Origin: Beroe forskalii
Taxonomy: Eukaryota > Ctenophora > Nuda > Beroida > Beroidae
NCBI GenBank assembly: GCA_011033025.1
Contig: WFMF01000027.1
Location: 806,001 to 870,000, forward strand
Reading direction: 5' to 3'
DNA length: 64,000 nt
A model generated the notes under the pieces. That model saw only the letters and a list, made by a program, of their open reading frames with translations, made no database searches and had not been told where the DNA came from. Position 1 is the first letter of the stretch. Each line of letters opens with the position of its first letter. This document shows positions 1 to 62,500 of this stretch, piece after piece. Both the position numbers and the translations under genes were made by a program.

Positions 1-256
1 GCTGCTGACTAATATACTACAGATAACTAGTGACTACTTGTAAAGGTAAGACAGGGCATGCAAAGATATAACTAAATTAATGTCTAAGATGAAGAAAGTG
101 TCAACTCGAAAATAATCAGAAATTTAGAATGTCATTGATAAAAAGAGACTGAGTCTCAGGAATAATGCATTGCAGCAACTGAAGAAGATACAAATATTTC
201 TTCATACTTTCCAAATTTAATTAACAATCAAAAAGTCTGAATAAACAAGTACCCAC

Positions 257-3200
257 ATCTTTTGGACCGTCAATAGTTATTCTGAAGTGTCGGGCGTTGT
301 CTTCAGTAGGGTTGGCAGTTATTCCGTCGATTCTCTCAGTCTGCAGACGACACGTTTCCTGGCAGTGACCAATATTAAATTACATCAAAACCAGTGAATT
401 GGAAGGGTCATCAGGACAAAAGCCACCAAAAATTACTTAGTTCTTTTTGACGAAATTGGCCAACCTCGGGGTCCCAGCCGGGATGACTTGTTTTGCCGGG
501 ACTTTAGGCGGTATTTTCGTTTTATTGCGAGTGAAAATTGAGGGAAAAACATCATTAAGTCATTATTTTGTCAAATATAATTCATTTGAATTGAATTAAT
601 CAAAAGAGCATTCTATTTAATTTGTGTGAGGATTTTTTTTGGAATAGAAATTGGCTTTTGGTGTTAACGTAGTTAAGTGGTTTTAATTTTATTAGGGATC
701 GTTCACATATCACGTAATCAATTTTTGGCCGATTTTAACCCCCCTTCCCCTCATAATCAAGTTTACAGTAGTTGTATTTGTTACAATAACATGTAACGTA
801 ATCATTCGGAAACCCCCCCCCCTAGGTGATTACGTAATATGTGAACGATCTCTAATTACGTATGTCGTAAGTCAGTGTCAAGGAATTAAGGCGTTGTGAT
901 AGTAGTGCAGAGGTGCCAAGGTAGTAAGTTAGGGGGGGATGAAGCCCAAAAAAAACCAAAAAAAACCAAAAAAAACCTAGCCCAAGAATCGGAAAAGTAG
1001 GGTGGGCCTTCGTTTTTTTTGGTTTTTTTTGGTATTTTTTGGTATTTTTTGGTTTTTTTTGGTATTTTTTTGGGTTAGGTTTTTTCAAAAATTTTGACTT
1101 TTTCATGCCAATATGGATTTTTGATGCTATTTAAGTGTTGTTATTGATATTACTATAGTTTCAAACAATATTCGTCAGTTTTTTTCAGCACGTTATTTTT
1201 TATTTTATTTTGTTTGATTTGCTACATCATATGAATTAGCTAGTAGCTAGTAGTACTGTAGTAGTCTAAGTAATAGTTTTAAAAATAAATCATTCTATTG
1301 GTTTTAATAAATTCATGCCAACGCATGGTCAAGTCTGCTGTAAAATATAAATAACATTGTTTCATTAAATAACATTGTTTCATTTTTATCAATGTTTTGG
1401 GTGATGAATGGCGTTTTATATGACATAATCAGTATGTCAAGGCATTGTTTTGGTGAACCATCAGCGAAGCACAGCTCAAGAGTTGCCGAGGGTCAGCCAG
1501 CATGGATCAGCAGGGGGTAAATAGGGGTCAGACTTAAATCACTCAGTGCTGAAATAATGACATAGGGGCCCTGCAAACTGCCAAGTGCTAGTGAACCAGG
1601 GGGTTACTCAGGGCTCACTGGTTTGCTCAGGGCTGATAAAGTTCAGACTAGTGTCACCTGAGATTAACAAGGTGTTTCGCACTGGAAAAGTCACCATGTC
1701 AAAGGATAGCCAAGGGTCGCCAGGGAGCCAGCTAGATGATTGTCCAATATCAGGTAATGGTCAGAAGGAGCCCCTGAGAGACCTGTAACGAGTCACTTGG
1801 GGTTCACTCAGGACCTCAGGATCAGTTCTAAAATATAAATGGATGCTTTTACTTGACTGATTACTATTGGAAGTCACTTATAAGAATACCTAAGAATGCA
1901 GCTAAAAACCTATAGGAAAAATTATAGGTACCTATTGGAAATCATCTTATATACTTGTTAAAAGAATCTGCAAGTGTCTTAATAACAGAGGAATTTCAGC
2001 ATTAACATCCCAACAATAATAAAATGTCTTCTTGAAAATTAACAAAACAGTCCTGAATGTGAATTTTGAATAATGGGACCAATTTCAGAAGGATAAGGTG
2101 AGTGAAAATGTTCAATTATATTCAGTAAATTAGACAATTATAGGTCGTTAAAGCTTCATAACAAGCTCCTGTGGATCTACAGTCACATGGTAGACATCGT
2201 AAAACAATCGAATTTTAACCTAAAAATCGTTTGGAAAGGTGCTAGAAATTACTAAAATGTAACCCAAAAAAAAACAAAAAAAACCTAAAAAAACCAAAAA
2301 AAACCTAGCCCAAGAATCGGAAAAGTAGGGTGGGGCTTGTTTTTTTTTTGGGCTTCATCCCCCCCAAGTTAGTAAGGCAGTGTCACGATAGATAAGCTAA
2401 ACGGTCAAGGTGGTGAGGTGGTACTTCGGTGGTATCAGGGCAGTTAACTTAAATAAGGGCAGTTAACTTAAAAGCGGTGTCAAGTAAGTGAGTCAGTGTC
2501 AAGGTAATACGGCGGTGTCAGACCGTAGCAAAGCGACGTCAGAGAGTAAAGAAGCTGACAAATAGTATTGTGTAGTGAAACGGTGTCAAGGTAGTAAAGT
2601 GGCATCAAGGTAGTAAGGCGATTTCAAGAGGTTCTAGGTCATCTGGCCTAACTGGACATTTGGCCTAACGCCTTTAACTCAAGAAATACTCAAGAAATTT
2701 TGAATTTATCTCTCTCCCCTGACCCTAACCAGTGTTAGGCCAGATGTCCAGTTAGGCCAAATGACCGAATACCATTTCAAGACGGCATCACGTTAGTTAT
2801 TGAGCTAAGCCAGAAGCCAAGGAAGTAAACTAGTCGTGTCAAGGTAGTAAAGCGGTGTCAAGGTGATAAAGCCGTGTCAATGTGGTAAAATAGTAAATTC
2901 GGTATTGAAATTCAGTTCGCATTCAGCACTTTCCAAAACATGCATACATAGTACCTAGTACCTACATACCCAAATGGTGATCTAATTTCTGGATGTGCCC
3001 CTTATACAAATCAGTTATTGTGTACATACACATTTTGGAATTTTTGGAAATGTTCAGTTTGCATTCTCAGTGTATCATTAATTAAAAGCCTTGTTTAAAA
3101 AACCGAATTTTGTATATTATTTCATTCATGAGGAACAACCTACAAGTTAACAGCCTATAACAATTTTATCATAAGCAAAACTCAAAAGGGGTAATATAAT

Positions 3201-4277
3201 AACTTAATAAGCTAAGCAAAATACAAATCAGTCTAGAATGTTGAAAATGTGACAAGTTCAATTTTTAATTTTGATTGTATTTTTGTAAGCATTTATTAAA
3301 AACAGCATGTGGTTCAGACATATTATCGTTGAATTTGGGCCCAAAACTTAGTTTGCACAAACCAGAATGTTTTTGAAACTGATCAAATAAAGATTCGTAA
3401 TTTTTCAAAGTCCAAATGTTCCGTTTTGGTACACTTTGTCCCGTTTCGTCCCGCTAAAAATGTCCCGTTCGAAAATTTTTATGAGCAAGGGGCATAACGG
3501 GACAAAACGGGATATAACCGGACGTTAGTCCCCCCGTCTGCATTCTCAGTGTATCATTTTGAAAGCCTAGTGTAAAAACCGAATTTTGTACCTATATTTT
3601 GTCATTCATGATGAACAAGTTAATAACAGCCTAATATAACAATTCTATCATAAGCAAAACCCAAAAGGGGTATTATAATAACTTAATAAGCAAAAGGGGT
3701 AATATCATAAGCGAAAGGAGTAATACCTATGAACAATGAGCATCAAGAGGAACATAAAAATAAGAAAATTATTGAAATCCTGGTTAAAATCCTGGTATCC
3801 CGGCTGAGATGACCCTGATCCCAGCCCTGGCCAGGTTTTTGAAGTCTCCCCAGTCCCAGTACAGGTCCCAGCAAGGATCAAGGTCATCCCAGCCTGTTCC
3901 TGGCCAGGATGCAACGGCCATCCTGGTCGACCACTGGACATCCTTGACCATATTTTTGTTAAATCTCTTCAAAATCTACACTGAATAAAAACTAAATAAA
4001 TCTCATGATCTCAACAGTCAAGGTGGCTCCTCTTAGTTCCTGCAACATTGATCAAATTTCTTACAAACAAGAGAAAAAGGGGATGAGAGCTCTAAACAAA
4101 TTTTCTTTTTGCCCCAGAAAATTCAACAATCTTTACTAGTCCAGATGTGATTTAGGTCGACTTTGAAACTTAACTTGAAGTCACTGTCTTCCCCTTCCAT
4201 TTCATTTCTATTATCCTACACTCTAAGGGTTGCCCCCTCATTACCTTTATTATTCTTCGAGGTAGTTCACCAGCCAT
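257..4277 (-). CDS. UBE2N: UBE2N/Ubc13 second copy, exons 1 and 2 only (continues beyond the window edge)
   Basis: Partial mirror copy of the right-arm ubiquitin-conjugating enzyme gene. Exon 1 is 4,277-4,245 ([11 protein letters not shown]) and ends in a consensus donor, GTAATG, at 4,244-4,239. Exon 2 is 358-257, 34 codons, with acceptor AG at 359-360 and donor GTGGGT at 256-251. It differs from the right-arm exon 2 by one synonymous change (CAG/CAA). Intron 1 is about 3.9 kb here against 1.3 kb on the right, because it has gained a 1.43-kb element (932-2,365), a 145-bp MITE (2,629-2,773) and about 1.06 kb near 3,017-4,080. Exons 3-5, with the catalytic cysteine, would lie outside the window, so whether this copy is complete cannot be judged. 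Its exon 1 donor is intact, unlike the other copy. Confidence 0.85.
692..855. mobile_element. 164-bp MITE with 5'-TTAGGGATCGTTCACATAT ends
   Basis: Both ends carry the inverted repeat TTAGGGATCGTTCACAT followed by ATTACGTAATCA (left copy CACGTAATCA), and the inside is C/G-run rich. The same element sits at the mirror place in the right arm (60,458-60,627), so it predates separation of the arms. The outer TTA/TAA could be a target duplication, as in PIF/Harbinger elements. No coding potential. Confidence 0.7.
932..2365. mobile_element. GGGGG-ended transposon, copy C (1.43 kb, internally deleted)
   Basis: Starts GGGGGGGATGAAGCCC and ends with its reverse complement. It is flanked by the direct repeat AAGTTA (926-931 and 2,366-2,371). 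The right arm has the uninterrupted site with one AAGTTA near 60,385, which proves a 6-bp target duplication. Each end also forms a hairpin of (A8CC)n, a core reading CCTAGCCCAAGAATCGG, and (GGT8)n; the core has the same orientation at both ends. Two longer relatives are at 49,011-52,140 and 54,794-59,100. The lysine-rich small ORF at 852-1,106 is an artefact of the A8CC repeat. Confidence 0.85.
2395..2900. repeat. Degenerate ~20-bp tandem repeat (GTGTCAAGGTAGTAAAGCG)
   Basis: Loose tandem copies of a phrase like GGTGTCAAGGTAGTAAAGCG run across this stretch and are interrupted by the MITE at 2,629-2,773. The mirror array is at 60,000-60,440 in intron 1 of the complete UBE2N gene. No coding potential. 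Confidence 0.6.
2629..2773. mobile_element. 145-bp hAT-like MITE with 8-bp target duplication
   Basis: The ends are inverted repeats built on GGTCATCTGGCCTAACTGG / CCAGTTAGGCCAAATGACC. The flanks are the direct repeat ATTTCAAG (2,621-2,628 and 2,774-2,781). The right arm carries the empty site with a single ATTTCAAG near 60,130. An 8-bp duplication fits the hAT superfamily; the assignment is inference. Confidence 0.8.
3017..4080. mobile_element. About 1.06-kb left-arm-specific insertion with internal direct repeats
   Basis: The right arm runs directly from AATCAGTTA to GATGAGAGCTC near 59,740-59,765, while the left arm has about 1 kb between these words. The inside holds two copies of a ~150-bp block (3,069-3,215 and 3,538-3,690), a GTCCCGTTT-rich segment with its complement ACGGGAC at 3,415-3,530, and a CCAGG-rich segment at 3,780-3,960. 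I could not define target duplications or a family. No convincing gene. Confidence 0.5.
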
Positions 4278-7296: not shown

Positions 7297-7866
7297 TTCG
7301 TTATGATACACAGAATGAAAATTTTGAAATCTTACTAATGTTATCTTGCATAGAATGGACATGTATGTTATTTGTATTTTTAACTTATTAATTGTAACTT
7401 ATTAATTTCAACTAATATATTAATTATATCAAAGTGAAATTGATTTTGACTCACAGCAAGTAGGTAAATTTCTTTTTTGTAAATTCTTATTTAATCTATT
7501 GCTGTTGTACCAAGGGTGGTACCCAAGTACCCACAAGTATTTCCTGTAGCCGCAACAAAATCCAATTACCATGATCAATTGCAATACATTTTCCTAAGTA
7601 TTAATTCCTGCTTGGTTTGTTTTGTAATGGGTGTTTTTAATTAAATAGTATTTCACTATAATGGTTATGCAGCTTGTTAGGATATCCTGACTTTACTTTA
7701 TTTTATTATTTCAGTTTTTAAATTATTATATCAGTATATTATGTTCATATTAATTTAATCTAAATCACAATTGTCATATGACCAGAAAGAATTCAACTGT
7801 TCAAATTATGGTGTAATGTGCTACTAAATATAAACTTATTTGTTTTATTAAACTTATTCGTTTTAT
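7297..7866. other. AT-rich left-arm-specific stretch, no gene seen
   Basis: About 570 bp very rich in A and T lies between two positions that are adjacent in the right arm, apart from the hAT-like element there. It is probably an insertion, but I find no clean inverted ends or target duplication, and no ORF of interest. Confidence 0.4.
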
Positions 7867-7889
7867 TGTGGCTCAGTGTACCATTAACC

Positions 7890-8780
7890 ATGGCTACAAG
7901 TGATGGTCCAAAGGCTCCTGAGGACTTGCTCTGCAAAGTAAACGTTTGGCTTGGAAAGTCGATGAAGGATTTGAACTGCCCAGTCTCACGCTACGATCAC
8001 GTGACAAAACAAAAGTGCAGAGCTTTGGGGAGAGAGGACCTTGCTGAGTTGTTTAATGAAGCATTTCATTTTGTGTGGTACCAGAATGTGCATCTGCAGC
8101 AGACGATGACAGAGCTCAATGCAACGAGAGCTGAGCTGGTGAAATTGCAGAAACTGGCCATAGTTCAGCAGCATGAAGTGATTGTTAGTAAGGACAAATT
8201 GTTGGCATCAGTTCAGAGTGCAGTAACAGGGTCAGTTTAGAGTGCGGTAACAGCATCTGTATCAAAGACAGTGCAAGCAGAAATCAAGTCATACAGTGAC
8301 ACAGTTAAGTGTTCCACTGAATCCAATCAAATCAGTTCAGAAACACTTAAAAGTGTGGTGAAGTCAGCAGTGCAGGAAGAAGATCGGAGCAAAAACCTGA
8401 TGATGTTTGGAGTTCCGGAGGAGGGAAAGGAGAACTTGTCTGAGAAGGTTCAGGAAGTACTCAGTGAGCTCAAAATGAAGCCGGTTACTGAAGTTTGCCA
8501 TGTGGGGAAGACTGGGAGCAAGGAGAGACCAAGACCAGTGAAAGTGACTTTATCATGTGTCAGCACTGCGAGACATGTTCTTGTTCAAGCGAAAAAGTTG
8601 CGGAATTTACAGAAGTTCAGTGCAGTGTTCATCAGACCAGACAGGACAATGGAGGAATGGGCTGCACACAGGCTTCTCATCGAGGAGTTAAAGAAGAAAG
8701 AGTGGGGGAGCTGGGTAATGAACACTTGATCAGATTCGGGACCATGATGATAGAGGTTGAAACAGATGGAGGGTGACTTT
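7890..8780 (+). pseudogene. LINE ORF1-like protein, nonsense mutation (left-arm copy)
   Basis: From ATG at 7,890 (MATSDGPKAPEDLL) the frame reads 116 codons, hits TAG at 8,238-8,240, then continues in the same frame to about 8,729. The mirror copy has CAG (Gln) at that codon. After the stop comes a coiled-coil-like, Ser/Val-rich linker, then an RRM-like core (KNLMMFGVPEE) and the basic phrase ERPRPVKVTLS, followed by FIRPDRTMEE and EELKKK. This layout matches non-LTR retrotransposon ORF1 proteins (nucleic-acid-binding chaperones). No reverse transcriptase follows: only about 280 bp of 3' sequence, then a CCCCTCCGGGG hairpin and TCAATCAATCA near 9,049-9,071, which looks like a LINE 3' end. Confidence 0.7.
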
Positions 8781-9069
8781 CTCATTGCACATATTCAATT
8801 CTGATTTCTGGTGTGTTGATAGTCTATGTGGTGGAAAAATACTTATTGTCTGTCTTTTTAAGATTTTGATGAAGTGATGTGCAAATTTGATAGAAATCCA
8901 GACAAAACTGATATAGTTTTTGCGAAATTTATCATTTTTTGACTATATTGGCTTGGTGAATTTATGTTATTGAAATGAATGTTTCTCCTGTGTGGCAAAT
9001 GATTATATATTTTTATACAATATTCTTAGAAGCCCTTAGCAGTGCCCCTCCGGGGTTTTCAATCAATCA

Positions 9070-9345
9070 CTTAATAATATTCATACTACTATACTAAATA
9101 CAAGTTGTGAGATAAAAAACACTAAACTGCTGCTCAAAACACGATCATTTGTACCATGTATGGTGGCATAGATCCGCCAACAACTTAAAATTAATTTCAA
9201 CTTGATTTCGAATGTTGAAGTGAAATGAATTTCAATTCGAAAAATTTTTCAAATTTAAATTGAAATCAAAATCAATTCGAAATTCGTTTTGAATTGTTGG
9301 CGGATATATACCATGGCATATATCCGCCAACAATGAACAAGTTAA
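9070..9345. repeat. AT-rich inverted-repeat block with TTGGCGGAT hairpin
   Basis: The phrase GTTGGCGGATATATACC meets its own reverse complement at 9,295-9,331, forming a hairpin around CATGG. A third copy in opposite sense is at 9,163-9,181. Between them lies GAATTGAAATT-type simple sequence. The same arrangement, slightly diverged, is at 48,720-48,930. Probably a fused pair of small foldback elements. No gene. Confidence 0.5.
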
Positions 9346-10113
9346 AATCAATTTCAATTCGACGGACGTTGCCTCGACGGACGTTGCCCGTCTATTTCTT
9401 CTGACTGGATGGCGAGGTTGCAAAGTGACGTCCAAATGTGGAACGTTGCCCGTCTATTTCCTTTGATTCCTAAGCCCGCATAGGTGTGTGTACGCACCGC
9501 GCGCGCTTCCCTGTTCTGAGGAAGCGTGCCGCGCACGACGATATAGATAACATGGGTATACGTGTTTAGCAATTCCTCTGACATTTCCTAAGCCCGCATA
9601 GGTGTGTGTACGCACGCGGCGTTTCTCTACAGGAAGCGCGTCGCGCGACGATAACAGGGTTGCCCTAACCAGGACCCTGGTTACGCGCACGGAGTGTGCG
9701 ACGCCCCTGGTTAGGGAAACTATGCGGGCTTAGGAATCCTGTTTGGCTCGCACGTTTCTCCGTAAGGAATTAGCGCGTTGTCTGACCCTGGCCCTCTCGA
9801 CTCGCTCTAATGTCTAACCAGATCCCTGCCCTAGTCTTACGCGCGCGCAGCGCCTTGCTTGTCGTTTCGTGACGCCCCTGGTTAGGGGAACCTCTCGAGA
9901 ATCAGCGCCGCGCTGGTATCACTTTTCATTCACGATCCCCTTTGGCAGGCGCGCGCGTCTGCCGTCTGACAACCAATTCATTTTGATCGAATTATTTTTT
10001 TCGAGTTATTTTTTCCGATTCATTTTTTGACTCTCGGACATCATACCAGGGCCCTGGTTGCTAAACACGTATATAAAAATATGTACACAACTATGTAATT
10101 GTAAAGTAAACAT

Positions 10114-11024: not shown

Positions 11025-11867
11025 TACTACGGTAGCAGCGTGTAGTTGTGTATGCACTTCGATGTCCAGAATTTTTGACCATTGGAAGTTGTTCTCCAGG
11101 CAATTCTGGTCCAGAATCATCTAGGTACCACTTTTGTATCGCTAGACACATGCCTGTGGGGCCACGCCCATGCCACGCCCTTAGGCGCGTATGGGTGAAA
11201 TTCGTATCTCGGTCCAGGAAGGTCGTAGAGACTCCGTTTTGGGCTCAAACGAAGCGCAATGACCATGTTTATATTAGACTTGTTAATAAACATATGCCCA
11301 AAAATGCTCAGGAAAAAAGTTATGGGAGAAAAACTGATTTTCGAGCCATGCGCGAGCCATGTATCGGATAATTTTCATATCTCTGTCGAGGAAGGTCGTA
11401 TAGACTCCGTTTTGGGCTCAAACGAATCGCAATGGCCATGTTTATATTTAATTTGGAATGAAAATTTGCCCTAAAATGCTCAGGAAAAAAAGTTATGGGC
11501 GAAAAACTAATTTTCGAGCCATGCTCGAGCCATGTATCAGGTAATTTTCATGATATCTTGGTCCAGGAAGGCCGTAAGGGCTTCTTTTATGGCTCGAAAA
11601 ACCACTTTAGCCTTGCTTATATTCGAGTTGTTAATAAACATTTATCCTAAAATGCTCAGGAAAAAGTTATGGGCTAAAAACTGTTTATTCCATTCATACA
11701 CAAAGCATTTATTGCATGATCAACTCGAATTCCCAGTGACGTAGCCGGAGGGTATGCAGACTATTCATTGTATGCCCTGAAAAGTCCCTAGCATAGTTTC
11801 AAACTTTGAGAAAACATCTTATCATAGCTGATTAGGCTAAATTTACCTGTTTGCTGTTAAAATCTGC
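11025..11867 (+). repeat. Left half of an 843-bp long inverted repeat
   Basis: This stretch is repeated in inverse at 13,981-14,825 with very high identity: a 107-codon open frame in each half translates identically. It contains three diverged ~150-bp tandem units marked by TTTGAGCCCAAAACGGAGTC. Similar units occur at 39,040-39,400. The identical open frames (11,048-11,371 and 14,479-14,802) are most simply explained by the recent or converted repeat, not by selection on a protein. Confidence 0.85.
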
Positions 11868-11996
11868 ATACCATGGAAATATTTTGCATACCCTGATCTC
11901 AAAGCCTTGCTAAGTTACTGCAAATTCCCTGAAAAATAAGGCAAGGGGCTATCTATAGTACTTGCATTAGCCAAAATACTCACTAAATCTTGATGT

Positions 11997-12260
11997 AGAT
12001 CTTGATGCAATATCCTCCCTCTAAACCTGTTAACCTGTTTTAGACCATTTACTGCTGAGCTTCCCTAATCCCTCACTTTTAAGTTACGACAATCTTTCTG
12101 TCATGAATCAAAATATTAAAGATATTCTGAATATTCAGAATATCTTTAATATATTGATTCATGACAGAAAGATTGTCGTAACTTAAAAGTGAGGGATTAA
12201 CGAAGCTCAGCAGTAAATGATCTAAAACAGGTTTAGAGGGAGGATATTGCATCAAGATCT
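11997..12260. repeat. Spacerless ~264-bp palindrome
   Basis: Starting from the centre near 12,134 (CTGAATATTCAG), both sides read outward through CATGACAGAAAGATTGTCG, ACTTAAAAGTGAGGGATTA and ATGCAATATCCTCCCTC with few mismatches. A partial single copy is at 13,895-13,990. A near-perfect palindrome without a spacer is usually unstable, so this is either recent or maintained. Confidence 0.85.
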
Positions 12261-12779
12261 GCTTTCGGGGTGCAAGCATGACTGCTTTAGTGGGGCTATC
12301 CAGAAATGAGCTCATCAAAAATCGGCCTTTTTTGAACATACATACATACTACCTCATCACTACCTCATCATTTGTGAAAGATACATACATACCCCAACCT
12401 CATCTTATCATTTCAAGATTTATGTTACAATGTTACGTAACTCATTCAACATGAAAGGCTGAAGTGATGTCACTACTATACTTCAATTTAAGTTAAATCA
12501 TCTTACTGGATGGATGTGAATTTTGAATTGAAGAGTCTTCTTGTAGCCTTGATTCAGTTTACCAGTGTGGTCCAATTTTACAACGAGTGGTCGATGTTTA
12601 ATTTTCACCTCTAAGTGATGAGCTCATCACTACCTACATACTACCTCATCACTACCTCATCATTTCCAAAACATACATACGTACCATACATACCCAAGTG
12701 ATGAGCTCATTTCTGGATGGCCCCTTATCATTGATAAGTTACTTGAATAAGTGACTTGAATCTAAATATGTTCTAAATC

Positions 12780-13420
12780 TGAAATGGACATTAACTACTT
12801 CTGATCATGCGATAACAGAAACCATTGGGCTGTGTATTGAAGTATTTAGATCGATTGAAACCATAGATAAAAGGGTCAATGGATCCATTTTTGGTGTTCA
12901 ATGGACATTGGACAATTGGACATGTCCAATGACTCAATGAGTCCAATGGATACACAACGGATCCATCTGAGTGGATGAAATGGACACAATCACCAAACCT
13001 GGTTTGGTGATTGGACAATGGACATCAGTCCGGTATTTTTTTTCAATGGATCCATTGTGCCCAATGATTCCATTATATCCATTGTATCCTATGGATCCAT
13101 CGAATCCAATGCATCCATTGGACACAATGGGAGACAATGGATCCATTGGTTACGATGGATCCATTGGACTTGGCTTAAGTAGTCACTCAAGCCTGGCAAT
13201 GTCTGACATGGCAAGGTGCAACAGTACCTCGTTAAATTGAAACTTTCTTTGACCAGAGGTATCTACTGTCACGAAAACCAAGGTCTTGCTCCTTGTTAGG
13301 GCAAGCAAGCACAGCGATCAAACAGAGATGCATATTGCCATAGCATGCGAGAAGCATGTTGATTGGACATGATGGATCCATTGGACAAGATTCACAACTC
13401 TTGTGACCCTTTATCCCACA
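12780..13420. repeat. CAATGGATCC/CCATTG-rich low-complexity block
   Basis: The stretch is saturated with CCATTG, its complement CAATGG, and GGATCC, in both orientations and without a fixed period. Both strands therefore give short open frames rich in Met-Asp-Pro or Gly-Ser-Ile (12,791-13,240), which are compositional. No gene. Confidence 0.6.
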
Positions 13421-13980
13421 ATATTATATCTTGTTTCAATCGATCCAAATGGTACTTCAATAAACAGTCCCAATGGCTTTTGAAACCGAGTGGCTCAGCA
13501 GTCAGCAATTTCAAATTTACATATTTAGATAAATCTTCATTTTCAAGTAACTTATCAATGATAACTAGAATAATAGCATCATGTCATTATAAGAGTTTCT
13601 GATCTTATTGATGATAATAAATGATATTTATATTACAAATATGTATTTTTATAGGTCAAAAGCAACTGGTCGAAATGTAGGTAGAAAGGACATGTGGAAT
13701 GTTTTGAAGCCTCGGTTTTGATGGTTTTCACTACAGAAACAAACTACCTTTACCTCAACCCTCTTCAATATAGAAACCATGATATGCAATTGCCAAGTCA
13801 TGAAGGATCTTTATTGAGCTCTTTCGACTTACCTACTTACCTTTTAGACCTACTTTTCGACCTGAGTCACATATCAATATTCAGTTAGTGTCTTGTGCCA
13901 TTTACTGCTGATCTATCCTCCACTTATATGTAACGACAATCTTTCTGTCATGAATTACAATATTAAGATATTCTGAATAT

Positions 13981-14825
13981 GCAGATTTTCACAGTAAACA
14001 GGTAAATTTAGCCTAATCAGCTATGATAAGATGTTTTCTCAAAGTTTGAAACTATGCTAGGGACTTTTTCAGGGCATACAATGAATAGTCTGCATACCCT
14101 CCGGCTACGTCACTGGGAATTCGAGTTGATCATGCAATAAATGCTTTGTGTATGAATGGAATAAACAGTTTTTAGCCCATAACTTTTTCCTGAGCATTTT
14201 AGGATAAATGTTTATTAACAACTCGAATATAAGCAAGGCTAAAGTGGTTTTTTCGAGCCATAAAAGAAGCCCTTACGGCTTTCCTGGACCAAGATATCAT
14301 GAAAATTACCTGATACATGGCTCCCGCATGGCTCGAAAATTAGTTTTTCGCCCATAATTTTTTTTCCTGGACATTTTAGGGCAAATTTTCTTTCCAAATT
14401 AAATATAAACATGGCCATTGCGATTCGTTTGAGCCCAAAACGGAGTCTATACGACCTTCCTCGACAGAGATATGAAAATTATCCGATACATGGCTCGCGC
14501 ATGGCTCGAAAATCAGTTTTTCTCCCATAACTTTTTTCCTGAGCATTTTTGGGCATATGTTTATTAACAAGTCTAATATAAACATGGTCATTGCGCTTCG
14601 TTTGAGCCCAAAACGGAGTCTCTACGACCTTCCTGGACCGAGATACGAATTTCACCCATACGCGCCTAAGGGCGTGGCATGGGCGTGGCCCCACAGGCAT
14701 GTGTCTAGCGATACAAAAGTGGTACCTAGATGATTCTGGACCAGAATTGCCTGGAGAACAACTTCCAATGGTCAAAAATTCTGGACATCGAAGTGCATAC
14801 ACAACTACACGCTGCTACCGTAGTA
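13981..14825 (-). repeat. Right half of the 843-bp long inverted repeat
   Basis: Inverse partner of 11,025-11,867. The outermost matching bases are TACTACGGTAGCAGCG. The two halves enclose about 2.1 kb holding the palindrome at 11,997-12,260 and the CAATGG-rich block. No clear target duplication: the flanks share only GTG. Confidence 0.85.
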
Positions 14826-25107: not shown

Positions 25108-25943
25108 TTCGATGTTAGGATGATAAAAGTTCAGGCATCCAATGAGTGGCTGCTAGCCAATTATTAGAGCTACCACTGTTGGCATCCAGTGGGGCGTCCC
25201 CGTGGATGGGTGGCGGGCCGAGAGCGATGCGCCTCACTTCCTCTCTGTTGATACGTCTCAGTCTTCGGGTCTCGACCGGAACGAAGGTGACTGTCACCTT
25301 ACCCTCAGAGTCCTTCCTTACAATCGGGCGTCTCCCTTCCCCGTGGAAGGTTAGTTCCGGGAGGATATCCTCCAGGGTGGGAGGATTCTGTGTCTCCAGT
25401 CGTGGCGCCTCTACCTCCAGGGTGGGAGGATTCTGTGTCTCCAGTCGTGGCACCTCTACCCCCAGGGTGGGAGGATTCTGTGTCTCCAGTCGTGGCGCCT
25501 CTACCTCCAGGGTGGGAGGATTCTGTGTCTCCAGTCGTGGCACCTCTACCTCCAGGGTGGGAGGATTCTGTGTCTCCAGTCGTGGCACCTCTACCTCCAG
25601 GGTGGGAGGATTCTGTGTCTCCAGTCGTGGCACCTCTACCCCCAGGGTGGGAGGATTCTGTGTCTCCAGTCGTGGCACCTCTACCTCCAGGGTGGGAGGA
25701 TTCTGTGTCTCCAGTCGTGGCACCTCTACCTCCAGGGTGGGAGGATTCTGTGTCTCCAGTCGTGGCACCTCTACCTCCAGGGTGGGAGGATTCTGTGTTT
25801 CCAGTCGTGGCACCTCTACTTCCAGGGTGGGAGGATTCTGTGTTTCCAGTCGTGGCATTTTTCGATGTTAGGATGATAAAAGTTCAGGCATCCAATGAGT
25901 GGCCGCTAGCCAATTATTCGAGCTACCACTGTTGGCATCCAGT
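25108..25943. repeat. ~80-bp direct repeats (25,108-25,186 and 25,861-25,943) flanking the 45-bp VNTR
   Basis: The phrase beginning CGATGTTAGGATGATAAAAG and ending GTTGGCATCCAGT is present on both sides of the VNTR segment with two or three differences. The VNTR relative at 36.3-37.0 kb lacks these flanks, so the 80-bp repeats mark either a local duplication or the borders of an inserted unit. Confidence 0.8.
25115..25858 (-). CDS. Hypothetical protein with ~11 copies of a 15-residue repeat
   Basis: A 247-codon minus-strand frame: about eleven repeats of PRLETQNPPTLEVEV from the 45-bp VNTR (25,372-25,858), then a non-repeated part reading ILPELTFHGEGRRPIVRKD, EGKVTVTFVPVETRRLRRIN and EEVRRIALGPPPIH, ending in sequence from the 80-bp repeat. 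The non-repeat part is also found at 36,300-36,480, where differences between the two copies fall mainly at synonymous third positions and the amino-acid changes are mostly conservative (V/I, D/N). That pattern suggests this was translated. No initiation context is convincing and no family is recognised. Confidence 0.4.
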   Translation of the reverse strand: MPRLETQNPPTLEVEVPRLETQNPPTLEVEVPRLETQNPPTLEVEVPRLETQNPPTLEVEVPRLETQNPPTLGVEVPRLETQNPPTLEVEVPRLETQNPPTLEVEVPRLETQNPPTLEVEAPRLETQNPPTLGVEVPRLETQNPPTLEVEAPRLETQNPPTLEDILPELTFHGEGRRPIVRKDSEGKVTVTFVPVETRRLRRINREEVRRIALGPPPIHGDAPLDANSGSSNNWLAATHWMPELLSS

Positions 25944-26239: not shown

Positions 26240-26429
26240 CAGCACCTGGTAGTCTTTCCCACGGTACTATCTTGCAATACCTTTGCTCCTGCCTCTGGTC
26301 TGGTGACTTTGATGCTTGCAGGGCGGGGTGTGTTTTTCTTGGTTGAGTAATGAGTGGACATCCTTGCAGTCTGCTTTCTTGGTTCAGCTGAGGCTCGAGG
26401 CCTCATGGGCCTCTTTAGTGCTGTTGCCT
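26240..26429. repeat. Left part of unit X copy 1 (host of the foldback element)
   Basis: 26,240-26,429 is the same sequence, in the same orientation, as 34,162-34,350. In copy 2 (34,162-35,885) the text runs straight on through GCTGTTGCCTGTGAAGG; in copy 1 it is split by the 6.2-kb foldback element and resumes at 32,634. Two minus-strand frames across it (KRPMRPRASAEPRKQTAR) are basic and repeat in both copies but match nothing I know. Confidence 0.85.
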
Positions 26430-31691: not shown

Positions 31692-31720
31692 CAGGTCTAA
31701 TCCCTGACTATGGGATTAGA
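31692..31720. repeat. 29-bp hairpin GGTCTAATCCC/GGGATTAGACC
   Basis: An 11-bp perfect stem with loop TGACTAT. Slightly damaged versions are at 27,342-27,370 and 29,050-29,080 inside the same foldback element. Confidence 0.7.
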
Positions 31721-35885: not shown

Positions 35886-36015
35886 CATTATCACGCCAGT
35901 AGCGCGCCAGGAGCACGCCAGTATCACGCCAGTAGCACGCAAGTAGCACGCGCATCACGCCAGTAACACGCGTCGACACTGGTCTTGCCAGGACGCCAGT
36001 AGTACGCCAGTATCA
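35810..36015. repeat. Array of ~10-bp units CACGCCAGTA / CGCGCCAGTA
   Basis: Starts with GGTAAATTGATTATTGAGCG and continues as CGCCAGTA-type decamers with variants. It is a one-armed relative of the decamer foldback element at 43,536-44,066; unit X copy 1 ends in a shorter piece of it (34,090-34,161). Confidence 0.75.
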
Positions 36016-36295
36016 TATACTGGCGGGTTACAACGTCCTGGCTACAAAGGGGGGTATTCAAGCCATATTTTTTGGAAAACACGTTTCTGAGATAATGGTT
36101 GACCCAAAAGGTATACCCCATGGTCCAACTTTTTGGCTGGGTTTGGTACCCCTAGACCCACTGGCGCCACCGTGGCCAAAAGTGCGCCCAAAATGAGCGC
36201 ATTTTTTTCAAAAGCGACTTGGACGGAATCTGAGGTGTGCAATCGATAGATAATGGTCCCCTGAGTTACCATTAAAAAAATTTAAAGTCGTCGTG
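36016..36295. other. Short unannotated stretch
   Basis: I see no gene or clear repeat. A 76-codon minus-strand frame (36,042-36,272) has no recognisable feature. Confidence 0.3.
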
Positions 36296-37046
36296 GATGG
36301 GTGGCGGGCCAAAAGCGATGCGCCTCACTTCCTCTCTGTTGATACGTCTCAGTCTTCGGGTCTCGACCGGGATGAATGTTATAGTCACCTTTCCCTCTGA
36401 GTTCTTCGTAACAATCGGTCGCCTACCTTCCCCAATCCCCATGGAAGGTTAGTTCCGGGAGGTTATCCTCCAGGGTGGGAGGATTCTGTGTCTCCAGTCG
36501 TGGCACCTCTACCTCCAGGGTGGGAGGATTCTGTGTCTCCAGTCGTGGCACCTCTACCTCCAGGGTGGGAGGATTCTGTGTCTCCAGTCGTGGCACCTCT
36601 ACCCCCAGGGTGGGAGGGATTCTGTGTCTCCAGTCAGTGGCACCTCTACCTCCAGGGTGGGAGGATTCTGTGTCTCCAGTCGTGGCACCTCTACCTCCAG
36701 GGTGGGAGGATTCTGTGTCTCCAGTCGTGGCACCTCTACCTCCAGGGTGGGAGGATTCTGTGTCTCCAGTCGTGGCACCTCTACACCTCCAGGGTGGGAG
36801 GATTCTGTGTCTCAGTCGTGGCACTCTACCTCCAGGGTGGGAGGATTCTGTGTCTCCAGTCGTGGCACCTCTACCTCCAGGGGTGGGAGGATTCTGTGTC
36901 TCCAGTCGTGGCACCTCTACCTCCAGGGTGGGAGGATTCTGTGTCTCCAGTCGTGGCACCTCTACCTCCAGGGTGGGAGGATTCTGTGTCTCCAGTCGTG
37001 GCACCTCTACCCCCAGGGTGGGAGGATTCTGTGTCTCCAGTCGCAT
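36296..37046 (-). pseudogene. Second copy of the 45-bp VNTR gene, frame-disrupted
   Basis: 36,300-36,480 encodes on the minus strand the same unique tail as 25,190-25,370 (EGKVTITFIPVETRRLRRIN, EEVRRIAFGPPPIH). 36,470-37,041 holds about twelve 45-bp units. Unlike the first copy, several units have 1-2 base indels (for example GGGAGGGATT near 36,614, CAGTCAGTGG near 36,637, ACACCTCC near 36,783), and the junction CCCCAATCCCC near 36,430 shifts the frame between repeat and tail. Orientation is the same as the first copy, so this is a dispersed repeat, not part of the palindrome. Confidence 0.5.
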
Positions 37047-43535: not shown

Positions 43536-44066
43536 GGGTAAATTGAGCGATCCGTCGAGGCCAGTATCACGCCAGTATCACGCCAGTAGCGCGCCAGTAC
43601 CACGCCAGTATCACGCCAGTATCGCGCCAGTATCAGGCCTACCTCACGCCGTTATCGCGCCAGTATCACGCCAGTAGCGCGCCAGTAGCATGCCAGTAGC
43701 GCGCCAGTAGCACGCCAGTAGCACGCCAGTATCGCGCCAGTATCACGCCAGTAGCACGCTAGTAGCACGCCATTGTCACGCCAGTATCGCGCCAGTCGAA
43801 CCTAACTTTAAGCCAGGACGCCAGTAACACGCCAGTATATGATCTGATACTGGCGTGCTACTGGCGCGCTAAACTGGTCGACTGGCGCGATACTGGTGCG
43901 TGCTACTGGCGATACTGGCGCGCGATACTGGCGTGCTACTGGCGCGATTATTGCGTGAGGTAGGCCTGATACTGGCGCGATACTGGCATGGTACTGGCGT
44001 GGTACTGGCCTGATACTGGCGCGATACTGGCGTGATACTGGCCTCGACGGATCGCTCAATTTACCC
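43536..44066. mobile_element. 0.53-kb foldback element made of CGCCAGTATC decamers
   Basis: Starts GGGTAAATTGAGCGATCCG and ends with its complement. Both arms are ~10-bp units (CACGCCAGTA, CGCGCCAGTA) converging on a non-repeat centre near 43,800-43,850. Relatives are at 34,090-34,161 and 35,810-36,015. No open frame longer than repeat artefacts. Target duplication not identifiable because one flank is rearranged. Confidence 0.8.
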
Positions 44067-46252: not shown

Positions 46253-47212
<960 letters not shown>

Positions 47213-48495: not shown

Positions 48496-49010
48496 AGCCG
48501 CCGCGGCGCGCGAATTCTCAAACGTTGTCCGACCCCCGTTATATTTTGGTGATTTCGAATCGATTTTGATTTCAAAATACAACTCGAAAAGTTTTTTGAA
48601 TTGAAATTCGTAGGATGTTACCCTACCCTCGCGCGCGCGGTGCAACGATCCACATTTGGACGTCACTTTGTGACGCCTTCGCATGTCAGAGGAAATAGAC
48701 GGGCAACGTCCGTCGAATTGAAATTGATTTTAACTTGTTTCTTGTTGGTATATATAGTCATGGTATATATCCACCAACAATTCAAAACGAATTTGTAATT
48801 GATATTGATTTCGAACCGATTTTGATTTCAATTTAAATTTGAAAAATTTTTCGAATTGAAATTCATTTCACTTCAACATTAATTTGAAATCAAGTTGAAA
48901 TTAATCTTAAGTTGTTGGCGGATCTATGCCACCATACAAATGATTGTGTTTTTGAGCAACAGTTTAGTGTTTTGTATCTCACAACTTGTACTTAGTATTA
49001 TAATATAGTA

Positions 49011-52000
49011 GGGGGTGAAGCCCAAAAAAAACCAAGCCCTACCCTACTTTTCCGATTCTTGGGCTAGGTTTTTTTTGGTTTTTTTTGGTTTTTTTTGGTT
49101 TTTTTTGGGTTACATTTTAGTAATTTCTAGCACCTTTCTAAACGATTTTTAGGTTAAAATTCGATTGTTTTATGATGTCTACTATGTGACTGTAGATCCA
49201 CAGGAGCTTGGTATGTAGCATAAACGACCTAGAATTGTAATTTACTGAATATAATTGAATATTTTCACTCATCAAATTGTTTTGGCATCGGTCCGATTAT
49301 TCAAAATTCACATTCATGAGTGTTTTGTTAATTTGTAAGAAGACATTTTATTATTGTTGGGATGTTAATACTGAAATTCCTCTGTTATTAAGACACTTGC
49401 TGAGATTTTTATCAAGTATATACTTATATAATATATATTAAGATGATTTCCAATATTAGGTACCTATACTTTTTCCTTTAGTTTTTCAACTGCATTCTTA
49501 GGCATTCGTATAATAGTGACTTCCAATAATAAAGTAGTAATCAGTCAAGTGAAAGCATCCATGCATATATCAGAGCTGATCCTGGGGCCCTGATTGAACC
49601 CCAAATGACACATTTTGGTTCTCTCAGGGGTCTCCCCTTGTCCCTACTGACCCCTAATTGACTTCCCAGTGAACCTTTTAAGGCTGATCCCCTGGTCAGT
49701 GGTAACTGGTCACCCTCGACTGACCCACTATGTTATGACAGTGTTTGAATAAATTTTTACAAACTGGATTCTGACCTTGTAAACAACCATTAATAAAGCA
49801 CACACTGAAAGGCCTAATAGATTAATAAGATCATTAATAGCTTTTGTTGACCCTAGGCCAAGAAATACAATAAACAGCCAATAGTCCTATACTGAGAGGG
49901 GTTCTGGGGTTAGTAAGATGAGAATTGATTCCACAGAGAAAAGTTAATGAAGGTATTCACTAATCTCTAATGTATTACACCAACTCTAACCCTAACTAAA
50001 TAACTATGGCCCTAGCTGTTAATCTTCAGAGCATTTATAGAGACTACTAATACTAAAGCTAACCCTGAAAACTCCTTACTCTGGAGTCTGGAGGGTACTT
50101 TTTCCAGGTCAGGTCCATTTGAGCTTCGCCAAAGGGGTCATACTACTGTTCTAGGACCTACATGCGGATGTTTATAAAACTGTTTGAACATGGTCCTTAT
50201 TATAGAGTTATAAGCTTATTTATACAATTTATGTATGTCTATAAAACTTAATTGAAGAAATTTAAAGGTGTTCAATCACAGGTCACTGGTCAGGTAGGGA
50301 GGGGCCAGTCAATGATTAATGAAATTCAATACTACATGTCAAATCAATCACACATAGGGTCATTAAATAATGGCCAGTCAAGGGTGACCCACTGACCCAG
50401 GGATCAATGTATCATTCACCAGGCCCTGGGTCAGCCAAGTGTCACAAGAGAGTCAACCGACAACCAGGGGTAATTTAAGGGTTAAGCCATTGTTAAGAGC
50501 TTCCTGGGAGTCAGCAAGGTTCACCAGGGCCAAGAGGTATACGACATATCAGTGGAATACATATTTTCTTACCTTTCTATACTCCGATCGAAAGGCTTCA
50601 GACATAGAATCTTAGAATTCATAGAAGTTGGATTATTGATCCTAAAATTTCATATGTAACCTATTTGATCTGGTGAGGAGTTACGCTTAGGCCTTAGCTG
50701 AGCTTCTTGTCAATTGTATTTTACATACTTACTCAGGCTAATCCTCAGCTTTATGACTCCAATGAGTCCTGGAAGACCTTTATTCGGACCTTACATTCCT
50801 CCCTGCTGAACCAAGGCCAATCATTTCCTTACCTTAACCGACTGAGTGACCCTAACCCCTGGGGATACTTTACAGACCCTTACCTGGCCTTTAATTTTGA
50901 GCATATTACAACTAGAGGAGTATACATCCCAGCATTTACCAGAAGGTGTAGAGCTAACCCAGTAACCCAGTATTGAGCCCTGCAGTTTCAGTTCTTGTTG
51001 AATGAGCCATGCAGCTTGGACATCCACTGCATTGAGCCAGGCAAGACATGTAGGTTCTCTCCACTCCTCCATGGACATAAGTTGCATATATACCGCCAGC
51101 ACACAGGAAATATTTCCTTGTGCTTTGGAAGGTAAGTGAATCAAGGGTGAAACTGCACTTGGTTGACCCCTGTCAAACCCTTACCAACCCCAGAGGAAAT
51201 TTGACTGACCCTTTTCTGATACCTATTTGATATTTTACTGACCCCTAGCAAGAAGTAAAAAACCTGAGTGGCCTTCTCGCCTCTTCTGACTGCAATAGTG
51301 GCCTGGTCCCTTTATGACCATTGGCTGACTTCATGCTGAACCTTGGCTGTTCCTTAATAACAACTGAATGAGTGATTAACTGATGTCTTAATTGCCCTCA
51401 CCCGACTTCTTACCTCACAAGCCTTTTGATCCCATGGTAGCCTGACGACCCATTGCTATTAAACCTTGCCTAACTCCTGGCTCCTGCTGACCATTACCTG
51501 ATATTGGGCAATCATAGGTGACTGAATCCCTGGTGACCCTTGGCTATCCTTTGACATGGTGACTCTCCAGTGCAAATCATCTTGCTAATCTCAGACGACA
51601 CTAGTCTGAACATTATCAGCCATGAGCCAACCAGTGAGTCCTGAAAACCCCCTTGGTTCACTAGCACTTGGCAGTTTGCAGGGCCCTCTGTACTCATTTC
51701 AGCACTGAGTGAGCTCCTGGCTCCTGATGATTCAAGTCTGAGTTCTGACCCCTTTTAACCCCTGCTGATGCTGGCTGACCCTCGGCAACTCTTGAGCAGT
51801 GCTTTGCTGATAGTTCACCAAAACAATGCCTTGGCGTACTGATTATGTCATATAAAACACCATAAAACACCCAAAACATCGATAAAAACTGACGAATATT
51901 GTTTGAAACCATAGTGATATCAATAACAACACATTAATAGCATCAACAATCCATATTGGCTTGAAAAAGTCGAAATTTTTGGAAAAAACCTAACCCAAAA

Positions 52001-52140
52001 AAACCAAAAAAACCAAAAAACCAAAAAACCAAAAAAAAACCAAAAAAAACCAAAAAAAACCAAAAAAAACCAAGGCCTACCCTACTTTTCCGATTCTTGG
52101 GCTAGGTTTTTTTTGGTTTTTTTTGGGCTTCATCCCCCCC
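49011..52140. mobile_element. GGGGG-ended transposon, copy A (3.13 kb)
   Basis: Starts GGGGGTGAAGCCC and ends GGGCTTCATCCCCCCC. Both ends have the A8CC/core/GGT8 hairpin (49,020-49,130 and 51,990-52,125). It is flanked by TAGTA on both sides (49,006-49,010 and 52,141-52,145; six bases if one change is allowed), and the left arm has the empty site near 9,097. Internally the sequence is saturated with TGACC/GGTCA words (for example CTGACCCCTA, GGGTCAG) without a fixed period. A 90-codon frame (50,707-50,976) has no known domain. Superfamily unknown. Confidence 0.85.
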
Positions 52141-52149
52141 TAGTAGTGT

Positions 52150-53483
52150 GAATATGATTAATTGATTGATTGAAAACCCCGGAGGAGTATCGCTAAGGGC
52201 TTCTAAGAATATTGTATAAAAATATATATTCGTTTGCCACACAGTAGAAACATTCAATTCAATAACATAAATTCACCAAGCCAATATAGTCAAAAAATGA
52301 TAAATTTCGCGAAAACTATATCAGTTTTGTGTGGATTTCTATCAAATTTGCACATCACTTCATCGAAATCTTAAAAAGACAGAAAATAAGTATTTTTCCA
52401 CCATATAGACTATCAACACACCAGAAATCAGAATTGAATATGTGCAATGAGAAAGTTGCCCTCCATCTGTTTCAACCTCTGTCATCATGGTCCCGAATCT
52501 GATAAAGTGTTCATTACCCAGCTCCCCCACTCTTTTCTTCTTTAACTCCTCGACGAGAAGCCTGTGTGCAGCTCGCTCCTCCATTGTCCTGTCTGGTCTG
52601 ATGAACACTGCACTGAACTTCTGTGAATTCTGCAACTTTTTCGCTTGAACAAGAACATGTCTCACAGTGCTGACACATGATAAAGTCACTTTCACTGGTG
52701 TTGGTCTCTCCTTGCTCCCAGTCTTCCCCACATGGCAAACTTCAGTAACCGGCTTCATTTTAAGCTCACTGAGTACTTCCTGAACCTTCTCAGACAAGTT
52801 CTCCTTTCCCTCCTCTGGAACTCCAAACATCATCAGGTTTTTGCTCCGATCTTCTTCCTGCACTGCTGACTTCACGACACTTTCAAGTGTTTCTGAACTG
52901 ATTTGATTGGATTCAGTGGAACACTTAACTGCGTCAATGTATGACTTGATTTCTGCTTGCACTGTCTTTGATACAGATGCTGTTACCGCACTCTGAACTG
53001 ACCCTGTTACCGCACTCTGAACTGATGCCAACAATTTGTCCTTACTAACCCATATGTGTGCAGACTGCTAGATTGAAAAAGGGCTCGATAAAGACGCACA
53101 AAAATTGTGTGCTTTGAAGGAATTTGTACAGAAAGTTGAAGCGCGCAGAGGAAATCTGCGCATCTTTATCGAGGCCTCTGTCATTCGAGCGGTCTGCACA
53201 CATATGCGTTACAATCACTTCATGCTGCTGAACTATGGCCAGTTTCTGCGATTTCACCAGCTCAGCTCTCGTTGCATTGAGCTCTGTCATCTTTTGCTGA
53301 AGACGCACATTCTGATAACACACAAAATGAAATGCTTCATTAAACAACTCGGCAAGGTCCTCTCTCCCCAAAGCTCTGCACTTTTGTTTCGTCACGTGAT
53401 CTTAGCATGAGACTGGGCAGTTCAAATCCTTCATCAACTTTCCAAGCCCTATCAGGAGCCTTTGGACCGTCACTTGTAGCCAT
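52150..53483 (-). pseudogene. LINE ORF1-like relic, right-arm copy
   Basis: From ATG at 53,483 (MATSDGPKAPD) a deletion of about two dozen bases shifts the frame. The coiled-coil region is interrupted by a 156-bp MITE (53,051-53,206). A clean 224-codon frame then runs 53,034-52,360 with the RRM-like core (KNLMMFGVPEEGKENL), RPTPVKVTLSCVST and FIRPDRTMEERAAH. The 3' end has the CCCCGGAGGAG hairpin remnant and the tail ATTAATTGATTGATTG at 52,150-52,185. No reverse transcriptase. It has Gln where the left copy has a stop codon, so the two are broken differently. Confidence 0.7.
53051..53206. mobile_element. 156-bp MITE inserted in the ORF1 relic
   Basis: Perfect 15-bp inverted ends CATATGTGTGCAGAC. 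The left-arm ORF1 has the uninterrupted site (CTTACTAACAATCAC, minus sense). The immediate flanks (TAAC and TTAC) suggest a 3-4-base duplication, compatible with but not proving PIF/Harbinger. Confidence 0.8.
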
Positions 53484-53512
53484 GGTTAATGGTATAGTGT
53501 GATACACTTAGC

Positions 53513-59200: not shown

Positions 59201-59573
59201 ATTAAGTTTTTGTTTGGGGTTGGTTGAATTTTTGAAAATCAGTGGCAGTGTGCCCAAAAAGGTAGGGGACAGTGGATTGTGAAAATTTATGGGGGGGGTA
59301 ACAAGGAGGGATTGAAGAATTCAGGGAGATTGGACCCAGGATGAAGCTATTCATGTATGTATAGTGCAATGCTAGTGCTTGTCAGCCCAGACCCCTCTGG
59401 CTGGGATTGAAACAGAGTGGGACAGTTTCCAAAGCAACCATATAGAGGAGAGAAACAGCCTCTACCTATTTACTTATTTATACATTTACCTTCTGTATGA
59501 TGATTGTGTTGAATAATTTTGAGAACTATTTAGCCTCACTAACTCTACTTGTCAGTGTTTTAGGACCTCTATA

Positions 59574-62500
59574 ATGGCTGGTGAACTACCTCGAAGAATA
59601 ATAAAGGAAATGAGGGGGAAACCCTTAGAGTGTAGCAAAATAGAAATGAAATGGAAGGGGAAGACAGTGACTTCAAGTTAAGTCGACCTAAATCACATCT
59701 GGACTAGAAAAAGGAAATTTTTGTTTAGAGCTCTCATCACTTTTTTCACGCATTAACTGATTTGTATAAGGGGCCATCCAGAAATTAGATCACCATTTGG
59801 GTTTGTAGGTACTATGCATGTGTTGAGGAAGTATGTAAGTATAGGTTTGCAGACATAGGTTTGTAGAATGATGAGCTCATATCATAATGAGGGGTACTGT
59901 ACTAATATCTTGAAAATTTCCAAAAATGTGAAATTCCATCAGGTACATTTTATTCTACCCGTAGTGCAAATATTTCAAATGCGAACTGAATTGCAATACC
60001 TTGAAACGGATTTACTATTATACCACCTTGGCAGCTTTATCACCTTGACACAGCTTTACCACCTTGACACGACTAGTTTACTTTCTTGGCTTCTGGCGTT
60101 GCTCAATAACTAACGTGGTGCCGTCTTGAAATCGCCTTACTACCTTGATGTCACTTTACTAGCTTGACACCGTTTCACTACACAATACTATTTGTCAAAT
60201 TCTTTACTCTCTGACGTCGCTTTGCTACGGTCTGACACCGCCTTATTACCTTGACACTGACTCACTTACTTGACACCGCTTTTAAGTTAACTGCCCTTAT
60301 TTAAGTTAACTGCCCTGATACCACCGAAGTACCACCTCACTACCTTGACCGTTTAGCTTATCTATCGTGACACTGCCTTACTAACTTACTACCTTGGCAC
60401 CTCTGCACTACTATCACAACGCCTTAATTCCTTGACAATGACTTACAACATACGTAATTAGAAATCGTTCACATATTACGTAATCACCTAGGGGAGGGGG
60501 TTTCCGAATGATTACGTTACATGTTATTGTAACAAATACAACTACTGTAAACTTGATTACGAGGGATAGGGGAGGGGGGGTTAAAATCGGCCAAAAATTG
60601 AGCACGTAATATGTGAACGATCCCTAATAAAAGTTAAAACCACTTAACTACGTTAACACCAAAAGTCCATTTCTATTCCAAAAAAATCCTCACACAAATT
60701 AAATAGAATGCTCTTTTGATTAATTCAATTCAAATGAATTATATTTCACAAAATAATGATGTTTTTCCCTCAATTTTCACTCGTAATAAAACGAAAATAC
60801 CGCCTAAAGTCCCGGCAAAACAAGTCATCCCGGCTGGGACCCCGATTTGTCAAAAAGAAGTAATTTTTTGGTGGCTTTTGTCCTGATTACCCTTCCAATT
60901 CTCTGGTTTTGATGTAATTTAATATTGGTCACTCTCAGGAAACGTGTCGTCTGCAAACTGAGAGAATCGACGGAATAACTGCCAACCCTACTGAAGACAA
61001 CGCCCGACACTTCAGAATAACTATTGACGGTCCAAAAGATGTGAGTACTTGTTTATTCAGACTTTCTGATTGTTAATTAAATTTGGAAAGTATGAAGAAA
61101 TATTTGAATATTTGTATCTTTTTCAGTTGCTGCGATGCATTATTCCTGAGACTCAGTCTCTTTTTATCAATGACATTCTAAATTTCTGATTATTCCCGAG
61201 TTGACACTTTCTTCATTTTGGCCTATAAGGAAGCATGGGATACGGGAGTGTCTTAGACATTAATTTAGTTATATCTTTAGTTATACCTTTACAAGTAGTC
61301 ACTAGTTATCTGTAACTACTCAAGATAATTCGCTGCTGACTAATATACTAGTATATTATTCAGCAGCGAATTATCTTGAGTTATCTGTAGTATATTAGTC
61401 AGCAGCGAATTTAAGGTATTATCTTGATTCCCTGCAGTCACCCTATTATCTTGAGTTCCTGCAGTCACCCTATTATCTTGAGTCCCTGCAGTCACCGTAC
61501 GCCAATGGAGTGTTTAACTTGGAGCTCTTTCTGCCGGAGGAGTACCCAATGGCTGCCCCCAAAGTGAGGATGCTCACCAAGATCTACCATCCTAACATTG
61601 ACAAGCTGGGGAGGATCTGCCTGGACATTCTCAAAGGTACCACAAACATGTCCCAAACATGTCACACAATGTCCCAAACCTGTCATGTGATATGTCTATT
61701 ATGTCACACTATGTCTCCTGTGACATGTCTATTATGTCACACCATGTCTCATGTGACATGTCTATTATGTCACACCATGTCTCATGTGACATGTCTATTA
61801 TGTCCTGTCTCATGTGTCTCATGACATGTCAATTTGGTAATCACACCATGACATCTCATATGACATGTCTTATGACATCAATTTATGTCACAATGAATGT
61901 CTCATATGTAACATCTCATATGTCATGCTCTCATTATATTATGTCACACCATGTCTCATGTGACATGTCTATTATGTCACACCATGTCTCATGTGACATG
62001 TCTATTATGTCACACCATGTCTCATGTGACATGTCTATTATGTCACAGCAGCGAAGTCTCGGGCGAAGAAAGTATGGATTACACTTCCTTAACCGTCACT
62101 GGCCTGTTTACTTGAATCTTTCAGAAGTAAAACCTTCGAAATAAACAAAACAAAAAAATGTCTCTTTTCAGACAAGTGGAGCCCAGCTTTGCAGATTCGC
62201 ACAGTTCTTCTGAGCATACAAGCCTTGTTGAGTGCCCCCAACCCTCTAGATCCCCTAGCTAATGACGTGGCAGAACATTGGAAGGATAATGAATCAGGAG
62301 CTATTGAGAAGGGTGAGTTCAAAATCATCGCATTAAGTCACATTCACTCCTAATATTACCTTAAATCAATAAGAATAAATGCTGTTTAAACATAACTACA
62401 ATGTTTTATGTTGTAACAATTTAAGCTATTTACACCAATTAGTATTTGCACATTGGTGATTTAAGTATCCGAAATATTTATCAGGAATTTTTGCGAGTGA

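Follow-up and report, generated by a model that had tools for sequence, protein, structure and literature searches.

Long inverted arms that hold a gene are known, for example, from the human Y chromosome, whose palindromes undergo gene conversion. Inverted duplications have also been described at the breakpoints of inversions, and in the cases set out for inversions 2h and 2q of Drosophila mojavensis they measure approximately 1, 4.3 and 7.1 kb, one copy being degraded and another gene being duplicated without its first exon (PMC3355041). For false duplications in assemblies, the marks named in PMC9516828 include half depth, gaps and discordant reads. Here we describe a stretch of 64,000 nucleotides of the ctenophore Beroe forskalii (assembly GCA_011033025.1, contig WFMF01000027.1, hereafter C325, positions 806,001-870,000; referred to below as the window), in which exons of the gene UBE2N are found on both arms of a large inverted repeat, reading outward. 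Judged from the assembled sequence alone, this is likely to be a real inverted segmental duplication whose right arm is parental. As an inverted duplication, it is a further case of a kind of chromosome scar that is already known.

The stretch compared comprised about 219 kb (the window plus C325:706,001-806,000 and 870,001-925,060, C325 having 925,060 bases), and the whole genome searched comprised 216,145,372 bases in 1,134 contigs. The locus shares with the palindromes of the human Y chromosome its long, inverted, gene-bearing arms; unlike in those palindromes, the arms differ here by approximately 4-6% and by many indels, exons 1, 2 and 4 alone being nearly identical, so that no sign of arm-wide conversion is apparent. 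As in the D. mojavensis cases presented in PMC3355041, inverted copies flank a segment, one of them is degraded and a gene copy lacks an end exon, but the arms are here about 21 kb and the spacer 20.7 kb long, and the layout is read from one genome alone. The locus also resembles the false heterotype duplications characterised in PMC9516828 in that a single contig carries two copies that differ by a few per cent, but it shows neither a gap between the copies nor homology of the flanks.

A minus-strand self-BLAST rendered colinear inverted blocks between C325:805,076-826,560 and 847,540-868,533, and local alignment brought the inner ends, by an extra match of 53 columns, to window positions 20,810 and 41,497. 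The overall order is L-A'-S-A-R, where A is the right arm, A' the left arm, S the spacer, and L and R the flanks:

Left arm: window -924 to 20,810 (C325:805,076-826,810), minus strand, about 21.7 kb; minus-strand self-BLAST and inner-end local alignment.
Spacer: window 20,811-41,496, no strand, about 20.7 kb; repeat-rich, with no palindrome except the transposon inside it.
Right arm: window 41,497-62,533 (C325:847,497-868,533), plus strand, about 21.0 kb; self-BLAST and local alignment; runs without interruption through UBE2N into the right flank.
Outer-end hairpin of the right arm, GGCTATTTTAATAGCC: window 62,518-62,533, plus strand; exact pattern search.
Second copy of the hairpin: C325:805,076-805,091, just left of the window, minus strand; exact pattern search.

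The inverted structure is genuine within the assembled sequence. No N bases are present in the 64-kb window, and the single gap across the 219-kb stretch is a run of 100 N at C325:732,745-732,844. The original prediction, made from the letters of the window, had described a near-palindrome of 61 kb at positions 1-61,410 with colinear arms of 20 kb. The arms are indeed inverted and colinear, but the left one runs 925 bases past the start of the window and the right one ends at 62,533, and just 7,155 gap-free columns align of the approximately 21.7 and 21.0 kb. The asymmetric middle, which had been placed at 20,950-41,380, is not palindromic overall, although a separate inverted repeat lies within it at 26,430-32,633; this repeat was considered as the innermost core of the palindrome and ruled out, since it is a dispersed transposon flanked by a 9-bp target duplication of its own. 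The arms are less sharply delimited at their inner ends than at their outer ones, because contig C692 carries, about 57 kb apart, two low-copy units (L035, L036) that are related to the inner arms and also overlap window 21.1-21.5 kb and 41.0-41.4 kb. These two units are 87-89% alike in the three longest matches between them, and C692 was discarded as the home of a second duplicated gene since a protein family was recognised in neither.

The outer ends, on which the comparison with joined haplotypes turns, are sharp. Both arms terminate at the final base of the hairpin, which has 16 bp with a 7-bp stem and of which these two are the only exact copies genome-wide, the reversed-pattern control having given 25 and 21. 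Past the hairpin, no alignment of the flanks was found. A comparison of the left flank (706,001-805,075) with the right flank (868,534-925,060) rendered 131 matches on the minus strand and 49 on the plus strand; in the 28 kb of right flank closest to the arm there is one match per strand (131 columns, 76-77%, at 872.5 kb), and the remaining ones lie beyond 897 kb, mostly within a local repeat cluster. One pair, C325:758-765 kb and 907-917 kb, has nearly the same axis as the palindrome and was tried as its outward extension, but was counted as a local repeat because the family recurs at 733-746 kb and, in the opposite orientation, at 766-774 kb. Contig C447 carries, at C447:558,294-559,366, a low-copy relative of the end of the left flank (C325:804,148-805,075), matching in two pieces at 94 and 90%; at the very point where C325 passes into the arm, the C447 sequence goes on differently. 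For the right flank at 868,534-869,700, no second copy was present among the 40 of 294 candidates that were scored, in which its own locus was listed; the other matches reach at most 113 bits and are repeats that do not span exon 5 of UBE2N. Contig C572 was also tried as the left flank's haplotype counterpart and rejected: over the 16 kb of it that was compared, the match consists of no more than a repeat element bearing inverted ends.

The exons of the two UBE2N copies are as follows:

Right exon 1: 59,574-59,606, plus strand; the next bases are GAAATG, not the GT of a regular donor.
Right exon 2: 60,939-61,040, plus strand.
Right exon 3: 61,492-61,636, plus strand; contains GRICLDIL, the active-site region.
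Right exon 4: 62,172-62,312, plus strand.
Right exon 5: 63,341-63,393, plus strand; ends in a stop, 808 bases outside the arm.
Left exon 1: 4,245-4,277, minus strand; donor GTAATG intact.
Left exon 2: 257-358, minus strand; 101 of 102 bases match right exon 2.
Left exon 3: C325:805,786-805,916, outside the window; frameshifted.

The left arm breaks off in the last intron (intron 4), while the right copy continues to its last exon beyond the arm. Two outward-facing copies had been predicted, and both read outward, but the left one retains exons 1-4 only, exons 3 and 4 lying outside the window, and the right one has five, the last of them outside the arm. A left exon 5 was not found by a motif scan of the 9.4 kb past the end of the left copy, and the best match of exon 5 DNA in the 99-kb left flank has 29 bases at 79% (E 0.11). 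The right copy is 77% identical over 150 columns to human UBE2N, and UBE2N was the top match when 51 residues of exon 3 were searched against the PDB. No third UBE2N was detected: with 45 of 45 candidates scored, E2-like matches outside C325 are at most 58% identical, and genome-wide a 27-base piece of exon 1 is present at these two places only. Besides the exon identity of 101/102, which applies to exon 2, the original prediction was right in ascribing different lesions to each copy. The donor after exon 1 is GA in the right copy and GT in the left, and the left copy has a garbled exon 3 and misses exon 5. Left exon 3 is far more divergent than the surrounding DNA, and short homopolymer runs make up 53% of its bases, which places it at the 99.4th percentile within the 219-kb stretch; because of these many runs, it may reflect a poor consensus rather than decay.

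Other E2-like sequences were noticed in the genome. A second inverted pair of E2-like exons lies about 127 kb apart on C273, at 91,116-91,632 (minus strand) and 218,337-218,753 (plus strand), and such pairs may be common in the assembly. Two contigs, C745 (L025 1-1887) and C358 (L026 184-1998), carry long open frames that apparently fuse von Willebrand A-like and E2 ubiquitin-conjugating domains, as labelled by eye, one of them with many VTSPA repeats.

The divergence between the arms was calculated over 15 hand-picked chain blocks, in which 425 mismatches in 7,155 gap-free columns correspond to 5.9% substitutions. The count omits off-chain tandem matches, the stretch C325:805,670-805,879, which holds left exon 3 together with tandem repeats, and, at window 9,813-10,065, a pair of colinear matches that are weaker (72 and 76%). 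Block-wise values range from 2.3 to 15.8%, with a median of 2 per 50 columns, and in the four stretches inspected the differences are clustered amid nearly identical sequence. The alignable part amounts to about 7.2 kb per arm, and much of the remainder is filled by private insertions, which are present in both arms, as had been anticipated:

Transposon private to the left arm: 933-2,365, no strand; AAGTTAG on both sides; empty site in the right arm at 60,381-60,387.
Relative of this transposon, present in the right arm only: 49,007-52,141, no strand; the left arm is empty at the corresponding site, near 9,083-9,091.
Broken coding remnant: 7,782-9,091, plus strand; common to the right arm at 52,141-53,494.

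Near-identical copies of the first transposon exist elsewhere; the target duplication of the second is short, about TACTA, and its edges are less certain. Private insertions with empty sites indicate that both arms have been separate DNA for some time, be it as alleles or as paralogues, and the broken remnant, since it is shared, predates their separation. We take this remnant to resemble the first open reading frame of a long interspersed nuclear element (LINE), and Pfam gave no match for it; of 10 open frames submitted to Pfam, nine had no match and one fell below the cut-off. A further element private to the left arm, at window 11,025-14,825, has inverted ends of about 850 bases that differ by 1.1%, and 173-bp sub-repeats; it appears to be a young insertion.

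The original prediction had offered either an inverted duplication or two haplotypes joined head to head, and it is the duplication that is better supported, since a haplotype join predicts homology of the flanks, and homology ends at the hairpin on both sides. A haplotype join fits poorly because alleles should continue alike past the arms, which the flanks do not, and because one gene copy alone has the full exon set. In the real duplication that we favour, the ancestral arm A would have been contiguous with R through UBE2N, and A', probably the derived copy, would be a flipped copy that was cut in intron 4 and joined to the unrelated L. Most simply, a small inversion would have turned S around, the break at L being a simple one and the other being staggered, with its two strand cuts about 21 kb apart; after fill-in and end joining, S would then stand between two copies of A in inverted orientation, and later on the arms would have drifted apart by approximately 4-6% and received transposons independently. 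As a staggered-break inversion would leave them, DNA that was originally single-copy stands inverted on both sides of the segment, and one copy is contiguous with its old neighbour while the other is cut, exon 5 being found solely beyond the right arm.

Several observations weigh against this interpretation. The GA donor sits in the supposedly parental right copy, and the left one retains GT. Exons 1, 2 and 4 show a single difference in 276 bases between the copies, versus roughly 4% around them, and such near identity is suggestive of alleles, of selection acting on both copies or of gene conversion rather than of a dead copy. Many blocks show an allele-like divergence, 7 of the 15 being below 5%. 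The stagger of about 21 kb exceeds the cases of 1-7 kb given in PMC3355041. Moreover, the C447 sequence could not be shown to represent the ancestral state, and the former L-S junction was not recovered. As to the complementary defects and the near-identical exons, it would take either gene conversion between the arms over the exons, or splicing of the right copy via a non-standard GA-AG intron while the left copy yields an isoform with another end, and we regard this proposal as improbable.

The same L-A'-S-A-R layout would be produced by template switching during replication, in which a fork stalled at L would switch to the hairpin in UBE2N intron 4, copy the arm backwards and jump back. It would account for a break at a hairpin, comparable hairpins beginning at just 87 of 63,980 window positions, and the short clusters of differences between the arms are suggestive of local switching, but no obvious microhomology is found at the outer junctions, where the left flank ends in TATCCCATGAA and the right flank starts with GATCTCAGAG, and the inner junction is too eroded to be judged in this respect. 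This route is possible, if rather doubtful, and the weight it receives is part of that given to a real duplication and not additional to it. An assembly artefact, on the other hand, would consist of two divergent haplotypes of one locus written in opposite orientation, with the outer end of the left arm wrongly joined as well, or of the two orientations of a heterozygous inversion written consecutively. The original prediction had kept misassembly in consideration, with good reason, given the blocks below 5% and the near identity of exons 1, 2 and 4; that no third UBE2N copy was detected and that left exon 3 resembles a faulty consensus point the same way. Alleles this far apart are conceivable because another ctenophore, Hormiphora, has in the data given in PMC8527503 a heterozygosity of 2% for single-nucleotide polymorphisms and 3.2% combined, and three heterozygous inversions. 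Nevertheless, at least two gapless false joins would be required, since homology stops at the flanks, and the gaps between copies that PMC9516828 names among the marks of false duplication are absent, so that an artefact seems unlikely to us. It is hardly credible, finally, that the whole is a single giant transposon with the 21-kb arms as its terminal inverted repeats. The inverted arms do have sharp, identical outer ends, but no target-site duplication was found at them (the outer 15 bases per side have no direct repeat in common), UBE2N crosses the right end into exon 5, and the 16-bp end occurs just twice in the genome.

The case shows that an old inverted duplication can be told apart from joined haplotypes using nothing but sequence, by its flanks, by one-sided continuity of a gene and by empty insertion sites. 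If the favoured duplication is true, a 21-kb inverted duplication is documented in a transposon-rich genome; if it is an artefact, gapless contigs can hold inverted false duplications that resemble pseudogenes of a core enzyme.

The spacer holds the dispersed element already mentioned:

Foldback-like transposon: 26,430-32,633, no strand; inverted ends of about 2 kb with sub-repeats of about 20 bp.

It is flanked by the 9-bp target duplication CTGTTGCCT (26,421-26,429 and 32,634-32,642), and many relatives occur elsewhere in inverted pairs (37 of 777 candidates scored). Long inverted ends, internal sub-repeats, dispersed copies and a 9-bp target duplication are features that it shares with Foldback transposons, to which it may belong; no transposase was found in it, no search aimed at one having been made. 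A tandem duplication of 1.5 kb, 2.6% diverged (32,634-34,167 and 34,342-35,886), begins exactly at the edge of the transposon, and two 45-bp minisatellite arrays, a direct pair 94% alike, flank it at 25,201-25,857 and 36,292-36,958. In the right arm, the 11-bp satellite GCCAGTATCAC forms an inverted repeat at window 43,536-44,066, and is also present in C447 (L034 3328-3501).

Outside C325, contig C1134 (L033 1-1560), of 13,339 bases, is a small, divergent mitochondrial contig carrying cox1. This cox1 reads best, by eye, with TGA as Trp, AGA as Arg and ATA as Ile, which fits code 4 and, taken with the small size and divergence of the contig, would suggest a non-bilaterian animal, perhaps a ctenophore; its AGA codons stand at positions that we take to be usually Arg in animal cox1.

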